Shown piece after piece: positions 1-14,753 of a DNA stretch of 34,319 bases. This DNA comes from Caulobacteraceae bacterium. Lineage in GTDB: Bacteria > Pseudomonadota > Alphaproteobacteria > Caulobacterales > Caulobacteraceae. The stretch is from contig CANJMO010000024.1 in NCBI GenBank assembly GCA_947475845.1, positions 1 to 34,319 on the forward strand. The letters run 5' to 3'. The notes under the pieces are model-generated. The model did not search any database, was not told the DNA's origin, and worked only from the letters and a program-made list of their open reading frames with translations. Position numbers and translations under genes: made by a program. Position 1 is the stretch's first letter; the number at the start of each line of letters is the position of its first letter.

Positions 1-1670
<1,670 letters not shown>

Positions 1671-1773: not shown

Positions 1774-3975
<2,202 letters not shown>

Positions 3976-3992: not shown

Positions 3993-4004
3993 AAAATCGA
4001 TTTT
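3993..4004. promoter_or_regulatory. 12-bp palindrome upstream of katG
   Basis: A perfect palindrome AAAATCGATTTT lies 78-89 bp upstream of the katG start, in the only AT-rich patch of this intergenic region. The position suits a regulator site or promoter element, but it does not match the OxyR pattern of four spaced ATAG/CTAT elements. Its function is unproven. Confidence 0.3.
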
Positions 4005-4053: not shown

Positions 4054-4071
4054 AAAAAGCCGATCCGGCCT
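4054..4071 (-). terminator. Probable terminator of the frameshifted GHWEG gene
   Basis: On the minus strand, directly at the stop codon of the gene ending at 4070, a short GCCG-GAT-CGGC hairpin (plus a G-U and an A-T pair) is followed by TTTTT. The stem is short, so efficiency is doubtful, but the T run is clean. Confidence 0.45.
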
Positions 4072-4865
4072 AGCCGCCCGGCAGCTGGATGCCCGACCAT
4101 CCCGCTTCATCCGGTCGATTGCGGTCGTTGGTGCAGATGTATTCGGTAAGCCGCAGCCGCGGCACCCTCTGGAACGAGTCCCTCAGCACCCACGGGCCGT
4201 CGAAGGTCTTGGCGTCGTCCGCCGTCACCTCGATCTCTAGCGTCCCAGGCCCCGAGCGGCGGATGCGCTCGACCAGGTGCAGCTTGTCGGAGTGCGGGAT
4301 CACCCCGCGCAGCGTCGTCTCCTGGCTCACCGCCACCGTATCCACCACCAGGGTGTCGCCCTCCCAGTGACCGACGCTATCGCCCATGAAGCTCGGGTCG
4401 GCATCTGGATCGTGCGCTTCGTTCATGCGGATGATGCGGAACACGCTGAATTCCTCGAACAGCACGGTGATCTGGTTCGGCTCCTCGATGATCTGGAACG
4501 GCAGCTGCGGCGGCGTGAACATCGCCGACGGCATCCCCGCCGGCAGGCAGCGCGACTTGGTGAAGGCGTAGGGGTGGCCGTCCTTGGCGTCCTGGGTCCG
4601 CTTGGCCACCAGGTCAGCTGCCCACGGCAGCAGCGGCGCGATATCGCCGTCGCCCCCCGGTCTCGACCCCGCCCAACCCCTCGTCGGCCTTGAACACGTT
4701 GGAGAAGCGCGGGCTCACCCACACCCCCGACAGACTGCCGGGTCCCTTCGGGATCGCGGCCGAAGCCTTGCTTTGAGCCAGAGCGGGCGTCGATACGAGG
4801 CAGCTGGCCGCCAGCACCGCGCCGCAGCCGAGCAGCGCCCTAAGGCTCCCGGAAAGTTTGGTCAT
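4070..4865 (-). pseudogene. Frameshifted secreted GHWEG-family protein
   Basis: Two minus-strand reading frames together make one protein of the same family as the two genes at 5044 and 5867. The N-terminal frame (4865 down to about 4655) has a signal peptide ending ALAQ and a GVWV segment, but runs into a stop at 4614. The C-terminal frame (about 4655 to 4070) carries RCLPAGMP, GDSVGHWEGDTLVVDT and the closing GPW motif. Removing one base from the six-C run at 4653-4658 joins them into about 264 residues, reading through GGDGDIAPLLPW. The start at 4865 is preferred because AGGGG lies six bases before it; another ATG is at 4871. The lesion could be a genuine mutation, phase variation at the homopolymer, or a sequencing error. 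Function of the family is unknown. Confidence 0.8.
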
Positions 4866-4926
4866 TTCCATCCCCTGCGCCCTTCATCGAGAGGGCTCTT
4901 GTCGGTCTTGGCGATGCTCGCTCTTG

Positions 4927-4947
4927 TATGCATCAATGTATTGCATA
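4927..4947. promoter_or_regulatory. Inverted repeat TATGCA-N9-TGCATA in a divergent promoter region
   Basis: Perfect 6-bp arms at 4927-4932 and 4942-4947 sit between the divergent GHWEG-family genes starting at 4865 and 5044. The same segment can be read as a direct repeat of TGTATGCAT and TGTATTGCAT. A dyad of this size in a shared intergenic region is typical of a dimeric repressor site, and GntR-type sites can look similar. No regulator gene lies next to it. Confidence 0.4.
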
Positions 4948-4958
4948 GGCGCGCGGCA

Positions 4959-4989
4959 TTGCCAGGGCCCAGGTCATGGCGTCTATTAT
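4959..4989 (+). promoter_or_regulatory. Weak sigma-70-like promoter candidate for the GHWEG operon
   Basis: TTGCCA at 4959-4964 and TATTAT at 4984-4989 are separated by 19 bases, which is longer than ideal. The -10 matches the consensus at five of six positions. It lies 55 bp before the start codon at 5044 and just downstream of the inverted repeat at 4927-4947. Low confidence. Confidence 0.25.
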
Positions 4990-5043
4990 CACTCATACTC
5001 CGCGCCTCTCAGACCGACGGAGCACCAGTGGAAGGAAGCGATC

Positions 5044-5853
5044 ATGGCGCCGTATCGCGCAGCAAGACGATTACTCACACCCGCATTGGCCCTCGGGCTG
5101 TTGGCCGCCGGCGCCGCGAGCGCCGCCACCCTGCCCAAGCCTGAATCCCTGCCCGACTGGGTCGGCACCTGGCAAAACCAGGGCGGTCCGGAAAACAACG
5201 ATGTGTTCGACGGGTCCACCAGCGAGCCGCGCGGCTGTACCGCCACCCGTCCGCCCTGCCGCGAACACCCGCCCTACAACAAGGTTTGGGAAGCCAAGTA
5301 CGAGACCAACCTGAAGCGGGCCCTGGCCGGCACCATGCCCGACCCCCTGACCAAGTGCTATCCGCGCCAGACCCCCGGCAACATGCGCACGCCTGAGACC
5401 ATCGAATGGGTGGTGCGTCCGGAAATGACCGTGATCTTCGTCGAGGACGGCAGCCATGTTCGCCGCATCTTCACCGACGGGCGCAAACATCGCACCGGCA
5501 AGGGCGGGTTCCTCAGCTTCAGCGGCGACAGCATCGGTCACTGGGAAGGCGACACCCTGGTGGTCGAGACCATGAACGTCCTCGGCGAGCAGATGCTCGA
5601 CCGCTCCGGCGCCGTGGTCTCCAGCAAGGCGGTGTTCACCGAGCGCATGCGCCGCCTGTCGCCGGTGCAGATGGAAGACATCATCACCGTCACCGACCCG
5701 GTCTCCCTGACCAAGCCGTGGGTCGTCCGCCGCCTCTACAAGAAGGTCAACGGCGACGTCTACGACTACGCCTGCTCGGAGAACAACCGGGCCAAGGTCG
5801 ACGCGGAGGGCACCACCCACCTGCTGAAGACCGACGGCCAGATCCTTAAGTAA
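5044..5853 (+). CDS. Secreted GHWEG-family protein A, function unknown
   Basis: A 269-residue exported protein. A signal peptide (residues 1-28, ending GAASA) is followed by LPDWVGTW, a Cys-containing segment TKCYPRQTPGNMR near 103-115, and the family hallmark GDSIGHWEGDTLVVET at 161-176. Near the end, a TVTDP...TKPW segment aligns with matching stretches in both neighbours. Homologs of this pattern are common in soil bacteria such as Acidobacteria, to my recollection without an assigned role. The upstream open frame begins at 4858, but the start at 5044 is supported by GGAAGGAAG before it and by the signal peptide. It lies 13 bp before its paralog and probably shares an mRNA with it. No catalytic residues can be named; conserved His and Asp/Glu residues in the motif would be the first to test. 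Confidence 0.85.
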   Translation: MAPYRAARRLLTPALALGLLAAGAASAATLPKPESLPDWVGTWQNQGGPENNDVFDGSTSEPRGCTATRPPCREHPPYNKVWEAKYETNLKRALAGTMPDPLTKCYPRQTPGNMRTPETIEWVVRPEMTVIFVEDGSHVRRIFTDGRKHRTGKGGFLSFSGDSIGHWEGDTLVVETMNVLGEQMLDRSGAVVSSKAVFTERMRRLSPVQMEDIITVTDPVSLTKPWVVRRLYKKVNGDVYDYACSENNRAKVDAEGTTHLLKTDGQILK

Positions 5854-5866
5854 GGGGAACAGAACA

Positions 5867-6532
5867 ATGCGAAAGAAAATCCTGCCCCTCGCCCTGGCCG
5901 CCGCTCTGCTCAGCGCCGCTCCCGCGGCCCTCGCCGCCGACTGGAAAGACCTGCCCGACTGGTCCGGCCTGTGGACCCTCGTGCCCGGCAAGGCCGATCC
6001 GCCCGTGGTCTACAAGGCCGGCGTCAAGCCGGCGCCCAGGGCCGACGACCCGCTCAAGACCTGCGGTCTGCACGCCGGCATGCCGCGCCAGTTCGCCGAG
6101 CCCGGCGCGCACGAGTTCATCCTGCGGCCCGACAGCGTCCGTCTGACCACCGAAACCCGAGACTCCGTGGCTCGGGTGAAGACCGACGGCCGCGGCCACG
6201 CCCAGGGCGATGACCTGTTCGACACCTATACCGGCGACAGCATCGGCCACTGGGAAGGCGAAGGCGCCGGCAAGACCCTGGTGATCGACACCGTCGGCCT
6301 GCGCGACGACACCTGGCTGGACGGCCGCGGCTCGATCCACAGCAACAAGGCCCATGTGATCACCCGCATCCGCATGGTCGGCAAGCAGCTCGTCGCCAAC
6401 ATCACCGTCGACGACGCGGACGTCCTGGCCAAGCCGTGGTCGGTAACCCGCACCTACGCCCGCATGCCGGCCGGCAGCATCGCCCACGACTGGGCCTGCC
6501 GTCTGGTCAAGAAGACCTCGGACACCAACTAA
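5867..6532 (+). CDS. Secreted GHWEG-family protein B, function unknown
   Basis: A 221-residue paralog of the upstream gene, 13 bp away and with its own AAGGGGA ribosome site. It has a clean signal peptide (residues 1-23, ending ALA), then LPDWSGLW, which repeats the LPDWVGTW start of its neighbour. The Cys segment reads KTCGLHAGMPRQF, close to RCLPAGMP in the frameshifted gene. The hallmark is interrupted by a short insertion: GHWEGEGAGKTLVIDT instead of GHWEGDTLVVDT. It ends with TVDDADVLAKPW. The three tandem or divergent copies point to local duplication followed by divergence. No enzyme function can be assigned. The protein is probably periplasmic. Confidence 0.85.
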   Translation: MRKKILPLALAAALLSAAPAALAADWKDLPDWSGLWTLVPGKADPPVVYKAGVKPAPRADDPLKTCGLHAGMPRQFAEPGAHEFILRPDSVRLTTETRDSVARVKTDGRGHAQGDDLFDTYTGDSIGHWEGEGAGKTLVIDTVGLRDDTWLDGRGSIHSNKAHVITRIRMVGKQLVANITVDDADVLAKPWSVTRTYARMPAGSIAHDWACRLVKKTSDTN

Positions 6533-11678: not shown

Positions 11679-14600
11679 ATGCTGAGCCACATCGTCCGCT
11701 GGTCGCTGCGCCGCCCACGGCTGGTGGCGGCCCTCGCCCTGGTTCTGCTGGTCTACGGCTGCGTGGTCCTGCGTCAGGCCAAGTTCGATGTGTTCCCCGA
11801 TTTCGTGCCGGCCCAGGCCGAGATTCAGACCGAGGCGCCGGGCCTGGCCGCCGAACAGGTGGAGCAACTGGTCACCAGCGTCGTCGAACAGGCGGTCAAT
11901 GGCGCGGCGGGCGTCACCGCGGTGCGATCCGAATCCATTCCCGGACTGTCCATCGTCCAGGTGGTGTTCGCCGAAGGCTCCGACCCCTACCGCGCCCGCC
12001 AGGTCGTCGCCGAAGCGGTGGCCGAGACCATCGCCGATCTGCCGCAGACCGTGAAGGCGCCCAAGGTCGCCCCCCTCACCTCCTCGACCATGGACCTGCT
12101 CAAGGTCGGCTTCACCAGCGACCGCATGAGCCCGACTGACCTGCGCGCCCTGGTCGACACCGTGATCCGCCCGCGCCTGCTGTCGACCCCCGGCGTTGCC
12201 CGCGCCACCGTCTACGGCGGCCAACTGCGCCGGCTCGAGGTGCGGGTCCGGCCCGACGATCTGGCCGCGCGCGGCCTGGCCTTCACGGATCTGGTCAATG
12301 CCGTCAAAGCCTCGACCGGCATAGCCGGTGGCGGCTTCATCGACACCGAGCAGCAGCGCATCCTGGTCACTCCCACCGGCCAGCCACGCACCGCCGCCGA
12401 CGTGGCCGGCGCCCCGATCGCCACCACCGACGGCTCGATCCTGCATATCGGCGACGTCGCCCAGGTGCTCGAAGCCACCGCCCCGCTCAACGGCGACGCC
12501 CTGATCATGGGCAAGCCCGGGGTGCTGATCTCCACCTCCAGCCAGTACGGCGCCAACACCCTCCAGGCCACGCATGCGGTAGAGGCCGCCCTGGCCGACC
12601 TGAAGCCCTCGCTCGACGCCCAGGGCGTGGTCATGAACGCCGGCCTGCACCGGCCCGCCAACTTCATCACCAGCGCGCTCGGCGGCATCGCCGAGGACCT
12701 GCTGATCGGCGCTGTGCTGATCGGCATCGTCCTGTTCCTGTTCATGCGCGACCTGCGCACCGTGCTGGTGTCCTTCGTCAGCATTCCCCTGTCGCTGCTG
12801 ACCGCGATCGTCGTCATGAACGGGCTCGGCTGGACCATCAACACCATGACCCTCGGCGGCCTCGCCGTGGCGCTCGGAGTGGTGGTCGACGACGCGGTGA
12901 TCGACGTGGAGAACATCGTCCGCCGCCTGCGCGCGGCCAAGCCCGGCGAAGCCCCCGAGGCGGTGATCCTGGGCGCCTCGCTGGAGGTCCGCGCGCCGGT
13001 GATCTACGCCACCCTGGTGGTCGCCTTCGTGCTGCTGCCGGTGCTGCTGCTGCACGGCTTGCAGGGGGCGTTCTTCTCGCCCCTCGCCGCCGCCTTCATC
13101 ATCGCCACCATCGCCTCCCTGGCCGTGGCTCTGGTCGTCACTCCGCCGCTGACCTTGCTGCTGCTGCGCAACGCCCGCCTGCACGACGAGGCCGGGCCGC
13201 TGGTGCGGGCCAAGGACTGGCACGACCGGGTGCTGGAGCGCATCTGCGGCGCCCCCAACCTAGCGGTGATCGCGGCGGTTGCCGCCACCGTCATCGCCGG
13301 CGCCGGACTGATGCTGTTCAAGTCCGAGCTTCTGCCCGCCTTCAAGGAGAGCCACTTCGTGCTCGGCGTGTCCGGTCCGCCCGGGGCGTCGATGACGACC
13401 ATGCGCAGCTATGGCGAGGCGATCACCAAGGACCTGCTGGCCATTCCCGGGGTGCAGACCGCCGAGCAGCAGATCGGCCGCGCCGAGGGCGGCGAGGACA
13501 CCTGGGGGACCAATAAGAGCGAGTTCCATGTCGAGCTGAAGCCCAAGCTTCGCGCCGCCCAGCAGGACCGCATCGAAAAGGGGATCCATCAGGTCCTGGC
13601 CGGCTATCCCGGCCTGAACACCGAGGTGCTGACCTTCCTTGGCGACCGCATCGGCGAGAGTCTGACCGGCGAGACAGCCGCCCTGACGGTCAATGTCTAC
13701 GGCCAGGACCTGGATCAGATCGACGAGTCGGCCGCGCGGATCGCCCCCGTGCTCAAGACCGTGCCCGGGGCCGTAGACGTGCAGGTGCAGACCCCGCCGG
13801 TCACGCCTTCGGTGCGCATCGATCTGCAATTCCCCAAGCTGGCGCAGTACGGCCTATCGGCGTCCGAGGTGCTCGACACGGTGCAGACCGCCTATGAGGG
13901 CGCCGCGGCCGCCCAGATTTACGAGAATGCCCGCGTGGTGGCGATCGCCGTCACCACCCCGCCAAACCTGCGCCAGGATCCCGAGGCGGTCGGCGACCTG
14001 CTGCTGCGCGGGGCCGGCGGCGCCATCGTGCCGTTGAGCCGCGTCGCCAAGGTCTATCTGGCGGACGGGCGCACCAGCATCAGTCACGAGGGCGGCCTGC
14101 GCCGTCAGGTGGTCACCGCCAACCCCGCGCCCCAGGACGTGCAGGCTGTGACCAAGGCCGCATCCCAGGCCATCGCCGCCAGGGTCAAGCTGCCGGCGGG
14201 AATCTACATTGCCTATTCCGGCACGGCCCAGGCGGCCGCGGGCGCCCGGACCGAGCTGCTGTTCAACATCGCCCTGGCGGCCGGCGGCGTGGTCGCCCTG
14301 CTGCTGCTGGCCTTCGGCAGCGGCCGATCGGTCGGGCTGATCCTCGGCTCCGCGCCCTTCGCCCTGGTCGGCGGGGTCGTCGCCGTGGCCCTCACCGGCG
14401 CCAGCCTGTCGCTGGGCTCCCTGGTCGGCTTCGTCACCCTGTTCGGCATCGCCGCGCGCAACGCCATCCTGCTGGTGTCCCACGCCGAGCACCTGGTCGA
14501 GGTCGAAGGCCAGGCCTGGTCCCTGGCGACGGTTATCCAGGCCACCCGCGAGCGTGTCACCCCGATCCTGATGACCGCCCTCGTCACCGCCTTGGGCCTG

Positions 14601-14753
14601 CTGCCCCTGGCGATCCAGACCGGCCAGGCCGGGCGCGAAATCCAGGGGCCGATGGCCATCGTCATTCTCGGCGGCCTGGTCACCTCGACCGCCATGAGCC
14701 TGTTCCTGCTGCCGTCCCTGGTGTGGCGGTTCGGACGCCGGGCCGCGCCATGA
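11679..14753 (+). CDS. RND efflux pump, heavy-metal (CzcA/NrsA-like) type
   Basis: Inner-membrane proton-driven pump. It has 1024 residues with the RND layout: TM1 at about 15-32, a large periplasmic loop, TM2-6 at about 340-495, a second loop, and TM7-12 at about 875-1015. TM4 carries the proton-relay motif GVVVDDAVIDVENIVRRL with Asp404, Asp405, Asp409, Glu411 and Asn412. This differs from the DFG-DGA form of CzcA and from the AIGAMVDAA form of CusA, and is closest to what I recall for the nickel/cobalt NrsA-like subgroup, so the metal is uncertain. The start lies 4 bp after the adaptor stop. The stop overlaps the response-regulator start by ATGA. Heavy-metal efflux is an inference; drug export is less likely given the motif and the sensor pair. 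Confidence 0.88.
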   Translation: MLSHIVRWSLRRPRLVAALALVLLVYGCVVLRQAKFDVFPDFVPAQAEIQTEAPGLAAEQVEQLVTSVVEQAVNGAAGVTAVRSESIPGLSIVQVVFAEGSDPYRARQVVAEAVAETIADLPQTVKAPKVAPLTSSTMDLLKVGFTSDRMSPTDLRALVDTVIRPRLLSTPGVARATVYGGQLRRLEVRVRPDDLAARGLAFTDLVNAVKASTGIAGGGFIDTEQQRILVTPTGQPRTAADVAGAPIATTDGSILHIGDVAQVLEATAPLNGDALIMGKPGVLISTSSQYGANTLQATHAVEAALADLKPSLDAQGVVMNAGLHRPANFITSALGGIAEDLLIGAVLIGIVLFLFMRDLRTVLVSFVSIPLSLLTAIVVMNGLGWTINTMTLGGLAVALGVVVDDAVIDVENIVRRLRAAKPGEAPEAVILGASLEVRAPVIYATLVVAFVLLPVLLLHGLQGAFFSPLAAAFIIATIASLAVALVVTPPLTLLLLRNARLHDEAGPLVRAKDWHDRVLERICGAPNLAVIAAVAATVIAGAGLMLFKSELLPAFKESHFVLGVSGPPGASMTTMRSYGEAITKDLLAIPGVQTAEQQIGRAEGGEDTWGTNKSEFHVELKPKLRAAQQDRIEKGIHQVLAGYPGLNTEVLTFLGDRIGESLTGETAALTVNVYGQDLDQIDESAARIAPVLKTVPGAVDVQVQTPPVTPSVRIDLQFPKLAQYGLSASEVLDTVQTAYEGAAAAQIYENARVVAIAVTTPPNLRQDPEAVGDLLLRGAGGAIVPLSRVAKVYLADGRTSISHEGGLRRQVVTANPAPQDVQAVTKAASQAIAARVKLPAGIYIAYSGTAQAAAGARTELLFNIALAAGGVVALLLLAFGSGRSVGLILGSAPFALVGGVVAVALTGASLSLGSLVGFVTLFGIAARNAILLVSHAEHLVEVEGQAWSLATVIQATRERVTPILMTALVTALGLLPLAIQTGQAGREIQGPMAIVILGGLVTSTAMSLFLLPSLVWRFGRRAAP

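Follow-up and report, generated by a model that had tools for sequence, protein, structure and literature searches.

What do the products of three homologous genes, here called A, B and C, do for a bacterium of the Caulobacteraceae, and are these genes a local cluster or part of a larger set? They occupy positions 4070-6532 of contig CANJMO010000024.1 (assembly GCA_947475845.1). This stretch of 34,319 nucleotides, the window, is one whole contig of a 2.65 Mb genome that is 98.7% complete, the source genome below. The original prediction, made from the letters of the window, described an uncharacterised secreted family of three genes arranged around a shared dyad, with tandem duplication and the decay of one copy. 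The secreted family is real, under-described and far larger than three genes. Judged from a structural model its fold is probably a known one, the calycin-type barrel, and we put at even chances that its members are periplasmic ligand-binding calycins, partly paired, which serve TonB-dependent uptake.

A secreted family with dozens of copies in the source genome

The genes and their signature motifs are the following.

4070..4871, minus strand: gene A, in two pieces with a frameshift between them (signal-peptide half 4614-4871, family-domain piece 4070-4609)
5044..5853, plus strand: gene B, first member of a two-gene cassette, secreted calycin-like protein of 269 aa (search, alignment, model)
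5867..6532, plus strand: gene C, a short form (221 aa) that stands second in the cassette (search, pairing, tree)
4337..4384, minus strand: GDSVGHWEGDTLVVDT, motif of gene A (sequence, alignment)
5524..5571, plus strand: GDSIGHWEGDTLVVET, hairpin of gene B and family signature (alignment, model, conservation counts)
6233..6292, plus strand: GDSIGHWEGEGAGKTLVIDT, motif of gene C, hairpin with a four-residue insertion (sequence, alignment)

The three reading frames lie where they had been placed, and their homology was confirmed by search. With gene B as the sole query, gene C was recovered at E 1e-21 and the C-terminal piece of gene A at E 9e-18, both at 38% identity, and a profile iterated from gene B matches A, B and C alike. 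The motifs named earlier are present in the three proteins: GDS(V/I)GHWEG, TLV(V/I)(D/E)T, a cysteine followed by a G/P-rich turn, and (K/G)PW. The described layout of two genes in an operon and one divergent also holds: genes B and C are on the same strand with 13 bases between them, and gene A, on the minus strand, diverges from gene B across 172 bp. As for the proposed signal peptides, the N-termini of B and C score as signal-peptide-like, and the start of gene A was judged so by eye.

The family is uncharacterised, as had been supposed. When 105 diverse members were searched against Pfam and NCBIfam at E ≤ 0.1, no family was matched by more than one member and none by gene B. In Pfam, genes A, B and C gave no match at E ≤ 10, and no match to a lipocalin profile was found there; gene A has one chance match in NCBIfam (E 0.22, under the cut-off). 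A sequence search of solved structures returned no significant relative. The 105-member profile, searched at E ≤ 10, gave only ASCL1 (E 1.4) and streptavidin (E 2.7), both insignificant, and no FABP; streptavidin is itself a calycin. Selected searches of the PubMed Central library, short of a full survey, returned no description of the family and nothing on DUF6152 or DUF6644, two families met below as its neighbours, and the accessible part of a paper on Solibacter paralogues (PMC3174227) mentions no such family. The family, its pairing and its association with DUF6152 were thus not found in the catalogues or the literature as searched.

The 105 members (alignment A3) were derived from 149 family open reading frames by removing 25 that were incomplete or on plasmids, 11 that were more than 75% identical to others and ten by hand, which left 103, and by adding two window proteins. 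Genes in the loci were called with our own codon-score script and not with a standard gene finder.

Three homologues do lie together in the window, but they are not a local family: the source genome has 58 matching places at E ≤ 1 with gene B as query, and the 105-member profile also finds 58 at E ≤ 0.001. About five of the 58 are fragments at contig ends. At two pairs of such ends (C3:2-148 and C66:2-148; C35:1-87 and C78:1-87) family and DUF6152 genes are cut off with equal or near-equal scores, which suggests near-identical recent copies left unresolved by the assembly. Two genomes of the same genus carry 78 copies (3.0 Mb) and 30 copies (3.1 Mb, 79% complete). Counts in 14 further genomes, which were picked for having matches and are therefore uninformative on family frequency, run from 7 to at least 150; three of them are lower bounds (at least 150, at least 129 and at least 95), scoring having been limited to 150 candidates, and at least one genome, with 77 copies, is probably the same-genus genome with 78, which it equals in size and best match. 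Large sets are found in other lineages too, with 89 copies in a gammaproteobacterial genome of 2.8 Mb and at least 129 in a Bryobacterales genome of 6.7 Mb. Occurrence is patchy: the family is present in 49 of 199 genomes of the source genome's taxonomic family, in 13 of 397 of its phylum and in 13 of 149 from the phylum to which the Bryobacterales genome belongs, where each set includes its centre genome and the best 13, 6 and 18 candidates per genome, respectively, were scored. Several copies and a DUF6152 gene were also seen in a metagenome bin labelled Klebsiella pneumoniae (CAMDML010000033.1), which probably is contaminated or bears a wrong label.

Predicted fold and export

Gene B was modelled alone with AlphaFold2 from the 105-row alignment (pLDDT 83.3, pTM 0.79). 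The model is a single barrel of nine strands (residues 41-45, 119-124, 128-133, 139-143, 162-168, 171-177, 197-206, 209-217 and 226-235). Strands A and B, the first two, have a helix between them (80-94). The best Foldseek rows were human FABP1 (E 5.6e-4, target TM 0.57, query TM 0.31) and CRBP1 (E 1.5e-3, target TM 0.48, query TM 0.27). Other rows, namely avidins, nitrophorins, thioesterases and pallilysin, were weaker than FABP, CRBP and NanoLuc and were set aside. With VIA-align, CRBP1 was matched at Z 8.9 over 124 residues at 3.3 Å, and all 50 rows listed (Z 8.2-8.9) were FABP-family proteins or NanoLuc.

A GxW motif in the first strand is a hallmark of calycins. In the family it falls in strand 41-45, with G41 in all 105 members and position 43 a tryptophan in 99 and a tyrosine in the other six, which lends support to the moderate structural match. 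An R-x-Y motif in the last strand is a feature of the FABPs and related intracellular lipid-binding proteins. Gene B has R230-L231-Y232, which, by the end points of the alignment, may be equivalent; of the 105 members, 28 have R and 22 have K at position 230, and 81 have an aromatic residue (Y, F or W) at position 232.

Two cysteines of gene B are nearly invariant.

5356..5358, plus strand: Cys105, probable disulphide partner of Cys244 (conservation)
5773..5775, plus strand: Cys244, probable disulphide partner of Cys105 (conservation)

Both are present in 103 of 105 members and both are missing in one, and past residue 25 the number of cysteines is exactly two in 86 of the 105. A pair conserved in this manner would form a disulphide and hence points to an oxidising compartment. 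Signal-peptide-like starts agree with export: 88 of the 105 members have one, as do 30 of 34 source-genome rows, versus 88 of 416 size-matched other genes. These figures come from a replacement score; the first heuristic (121/172 versus 383/873 controls) was too permissive and was dropped. Lipobox-like starts are few (7/172 in a crude test).

The likeness to the FABP/CRBP group, intracellular lipid-binding calycins, lies in the predicted single antiparallel barrel, the GxW of the first strand and the helix between strands A and B. The family differs from it in being bacterial and secreted, and in having a probable disulphide, nine model strands and long insertions; no sequence kinship with the group is detectable. 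Secreted bacterial calycins (Blc, YxeF, Tp0751) share export and, by prediction, a calycin-type barrel with the family, and Tp0751 is among the Foldseek rows for the gene B model (E 0.05); unlike them, the window family has no lipocalin Pfam match, few lipobox-like starts and dozens of copies per genome.

The two-gene cassette

Among 197 called family genes there are 25 runs of adjacent same-strand members, of which one pair was seen twice and one run is a triple. The pair seen twice belongs to two overlapping loci (L032 and L033), and its second member stands twice on the tree. The source genome contributes 11 distinct pairs to the 24 usable overall, and in its pairs the distance from the last sense codon to the next start is -1 to 25 bases. 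A tail of the CEENNRN type ends the first member in 10 of these 11 pairs and the second member in none; in gene B it reads CSENNR.

A tree was built from 171 members, after 26 of the 197 had been dropped (shorter than 180 aa, longer than 450 aa, or identical in the last 120 residues). On it, first and second members of the source genome are separated by 2 changes, versus 7.9 on average after shuffling (minimum 4 among 1000 shuffles), and over all 49 leaves by 9 changes versus 16.7 (minimum 11). First and second members of the source genome thus appear to be mostly separate lineages. Distances within first members correlate with those within second members (r 0.92; 0.78 without the window pair; 0.87 over 24 pairs), and in each of the three sets none of 5000 permutations gave a value as high. 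Duplication and divergence therefore seem to act on the cassette as a whole. Genes B and C lie within one 13-member clade (support 95), with a B-type branch (99) and a C-type branch (97), and are set apart on the tree from the other pairs of the source genome.

Copies of the source genome are clustered on the tree (21 changes versus 44 expected), a comparison biased by the sampling of other genomes with a B-like motif. The nearest neighbour is a copy of the same genome for 38 of 51 leaves and a copy from another genome for the remaining 13, so that a single recent expansion is too simple an account.

The closest orthologous locus, L059, in the genome of an uncultured member of the Caulobacteraceae, has the orthologues of B and C side by side. 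They are 81% (dN 0.13, dS 0.39) and 75% identical (dN 0.19, dS 0.49), giving dN/dS of about 0.33 for gene B and 0.38 for gene C; with dN this low against dS, both genes are under purifying selection. Gene A and the flanking genes of the window were sought within the 8 kb flanks of this pair and none was seen.

Gene A is a distant paralogue of B and C, as judged by identity: its closest paralogues in the source genome are 57% (contig C16), 49% and 46% identical, versus 38% to gene B. The proposed tandem duplication with divergence consequently fits B and C, which share one clade, and not A, which is nearer to other paralogues. The break in gene A lies at a homopolymer.

4653..4658, minus strand: six-C run where gene A changes frame (frame comparison)

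Downstream of the break, the frame retains the family signature, both cysteines and the PW motif, and decay and sequencing or assembly error are therefore indistinguishable; either may account for it. The frameshift implied by the idea of a decaying copy is present, but decay itself is not established, because one slip in a homopolymer can also arise in assembly.

Genes that accompany the family

DUF6152 (PF19649) and DUF6644 (PF20349) are frequent companions of the family. Both are distinct proteins, the former with an OB fold and the latter of the membrane, and the window family matches neither. In the loci of other genomes 197 non-family genes stand directly next to a family gene, and 71 of these are DUF6152, versus 0 of 264 genes at a distance of five or more (p 9e-31). 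Over all loci there are 90 adjacent family-DUF6152 pairs. Of these, 80 share a strand, 50 of them with no more than 50 bases in between. The two also co-occur: among the 199 genomes of the taxonomic family, a strong DUF6152 match (E ≤ 1e-20, a threshold chosen after the scores were seen) is found in 46, all with calycins, that is, in 46 of 49 calycin genomes and 0 of the 150 others. At E ≤ 1e-8, 47 genomes have both, two the calycin alone and 23 DUF6152 alone (a weak relative). P-values for such associations are inflated by shared ancestry.

The DUF6152 model is an OB fold (pLDDT 90.1). AHHS is present in 62 of 90 proteins and HH within the first 60 residues in 69 of 90, where several HH-less proteins have called starts beyond that point; with the replacement signal-peptide score 50 of 90 are positive, a figure affected in part by late called starts. 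In alignment A4, all 50 rows have P52-H53, and all have A-H-H just before the mature start, the feature for which they were picked. By these traits DUF6152 resembles a secreted protein of OB fold in which signal cleavage leaves a histidine at the N-terminus, and it is a candidate metalloprotein. Examples are found at L109:7291-7674 and on contigs C1, C33, C9 and others of the source genome.

TonB-dependent receptors are enriched nearby. They account for 18 of 338 genes at a distance of 1-2 in other genomes versus 0 of 264 at five or more (p 3e-5), and in the source genome for 9 of 148 versus 3 of 232 (p 0.014). Nine of its 26 receptors have a family gene within 2 kb, versus 2.4 expected (p 4e-4; 56 family places). 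Among adjacent genes of other genomes the local profile identifies 12 receptors in 197, and Pfam 16 in 113 (those of at least 100 aa); receptor counts by the local profile are therefore too low. The clearest case in the source genome is a same-strand row on contig C23 (L021) of TonB receptor, B-clade calycin and amidohydrolase.

DUF6644 occurs in other genomes in 16 of 557 genes at a distance of 1-4 and in 0 of 264 at five or more. A weak match to CopD is seen in 6 of 23 DUF6644 proteins, with a best E of 1.3e-6. DUF6644 membrane proteins were also noticed in tandem pairs near family and DUF6152 genes (L027:6762-7793, L056:7011-7983). L056 is a plasmid locus of Novosphingobium humi, a cultured relative with few copies, and in it DUF6152 comes directly after a family gene, with DUF6644 close by. 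The neighbours scanned in the source genome, 124 of 125 (with window positions 3-1670 scanned separately), include, as raw counts, three HbpS-like proteins, three ECF-type sigma factors and two FecR. Enzymes encoded nearby include amidohydrolases, PQQ dehydrogenases, short-chain dehydrogenases and esterases.

Proposed function and its alternatives

The reading we favour, at even chances as said above, is that of periplasmic ligand-binding calycins. Genes B, C and the broken A would encode exported, probably periplasmic, single barrels of the calycin type (FABP/lipocalin-like), each stapled by a disulphide and holding inside it a small, probably hydrophobic or amphipathic, molecule. Dozens of diverged copies per genome would allow many ligands to be handled. 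The products of B and C would probably cooperate, most simply as a heterodimer. TonB-dependent receptors would carry the ligand over the outer membrane, with the family acting beside them and together with the small secreted OB-fold protein DUF6152, and downstream catabolism would be served.

A precedent for the pairing is VtrA/VtrC, a bile-salt receptor in which two proteins form one calycin-like barrel in the periplasm (PMC4933562). The likeness would be in a two-protein periplasmic barrel with an amphipathic ligand; for B and C the evidence consists of genetic pairing and co-evolution. The Vtr partners differ from each other and are anchored in the inner membrane, whereas B and C are both full family members in which no transmembrane part was seen.

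Several observations weigh against the proposal. The structural match is moderate: the top Foldseek row has a query TM of 0.31 and an rmsd of 7.2 Å, and best VIA-align Z values of 7-8 are common in models without relatives. About 36 of the 58 copies in the source genome are unpaired. Receptors are only 7 of the 82 genes adjacent to family genes there, and only 6 of its 16 DUF6152 matches adjoin family genes in the stretches covered, which speaks against a simple two-part system. The direct neighbours of A-B-C are a catalase-peroxidase and a cell-wall amidase, neither a receptor nor DUF6152. The very high copy numbers (89 to at least 150) come from 15 loci in those 14 selected genomes. The searches above turned up no relative whose ligand is known, and the conserved W-E-G-D-T, E200-R201 and D218-P219 could be a catalytic or a structural set.

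The same neighbourhood may be read as a metal module, which we consider unlikely. Here calycins and DUF6152 would jointly capture metals or metal complexes: the N-terminal histidine of DUF6152, exposed when the signal peptide is cleaved, would bind metal with CopD-like DUF6644 as membrane partner, and the calycins would hold a metallophore, haem or chelate that a TonB receptor imports. Siderocalins, for instance, hold metal chelates. The idea draws on the DUF6152-calycin co-occurrence (46/46 against 0/150), the A-H-H and invariant P-H of the OB-fold protein, the weak CopD likeness of DUF6644, and the HbpS-like and FecR neighbours. A-H-H and P-H recall the N-terminal-histidine metal proteins DUF4198 and DUF6702, and DUF4198 is secreted with an N-terminal histidine, has TonB receptors among its neighbours and binds nickel (PMC12537917). 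On the other side, the calycins themselves lack a conserved set of metal ligands (in place of H166, 18 of 105 members have R and 5 more have W or K), DUF6152 genes are fewer than calycin matches in the source genome (16 versus 58) and only six adjoin family genes in the stretches covered, none lies beside A-B-C, and catabolic enzymes are numerous among the neighbours.

The conserved polar residues raise the question whether the barrel is catalytic, for example as an isomerase, cyclase or hydrolase, and whether the copies differ in their substrates, which might be terpenoids or compounds of lignin or humic origin. E168 (101/105), E200 (94), R201 (98) and D218 (99) are strictly kept, similar barrels with catalytic activity are among the structural matches (NanoLuc rows at Z 8.3-8.7; the spirocyclase OlmO, Foldseek E 0.029), and amidohydrolases, PQQ and short-chain dehydrogenases and esterases are encoded nearby. 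The conserved set, however, lies mostly in the hairpin and the strand ends of the model, as in a structural signature, and no enzyme family recurs alongside the calycins as DUF6152 and the receptors do; an enzymatic role is given a low probability.

That these are structural proteins of the envelope or of the surface, which bind no ligand and have diversified through duplication, accords with a secreted, multicopy family of strongly diverged paralogues (aligned with gene B, they are 22-45% identical), but is very improbable given the conserved barrel signature, the purifying selection between orthologues and the association with receptors and DUF6152.

Region between genes A and B and other features of the window

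Two elements were considered in the 172-bp region between genes A and B.

4927..4947, no strand: TATGCA-N9-TGCATA dyad (present, not above chance)
4959..4987, plus strand: promoter-like TTGCCA-N17-TCTATT, common to the upstream region of the L059 orthologue

The dyad, from which shared regulation of the divergent genes had been proposed, exists as placed. The window has 9.7 dyads of 6 bp with gaps of 3-20 bp per kb, and this region has one, a chance-level frequency; the dyad was not found in the 300 bases upstream of the gene B orthologue in L059. A role as operator was discarded as unsupported. The promoter-like element is shared by the window and L059 upstream regions with the consensus TTGCCA-N17-TCTA(T/A)T, and may be a promoter.

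Elsewhere in the window, a perfect 12-bp palindrome, AAAATCGATTTT, lies at 3993-4004 between gene A and the catalase-peroxidase reading frame (1774-3933, minus strand), upstream of the latter. An AcrB-type efflux pump gene at 11679-14750, within a same-strand gene run, is unrelated to A-B-C.

Significance

In genomes with 58-78 or more copies, the family would make up about 2-3% of genes, estimated at one gene per kb, yet it is nameless in Pfam and NCBIfam. As a bolder proposition, to which we give only a slender chance, it may be among the largest unnamed secreted families of Gram-negative bacteria, comparable to the odorant- and lipid-binding repertoires of animals. It would then consist partly of obligate two-subunit calycins and be tied, both physically and in evolution, to DUF6152, an OB-fold protein with an N-terminal histidine, as a new secreted protein for copper or another metal. 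With CopD-like DUF6644 and TonB receptors, it would form an undescribed module by which small molecules, either hydrophobic or bound to metal, are captured and perhaps oxidised in the periplasm. Two uncharacterised families can be approached at once through testable features, namely the constant pairing, the conserved cysteines and the joint occurrence with DUF6152. If the proteins are ligand carriers, a large share of the sorting of dissolved organic molecules in these mostly uncultured bacteria would pass through them.

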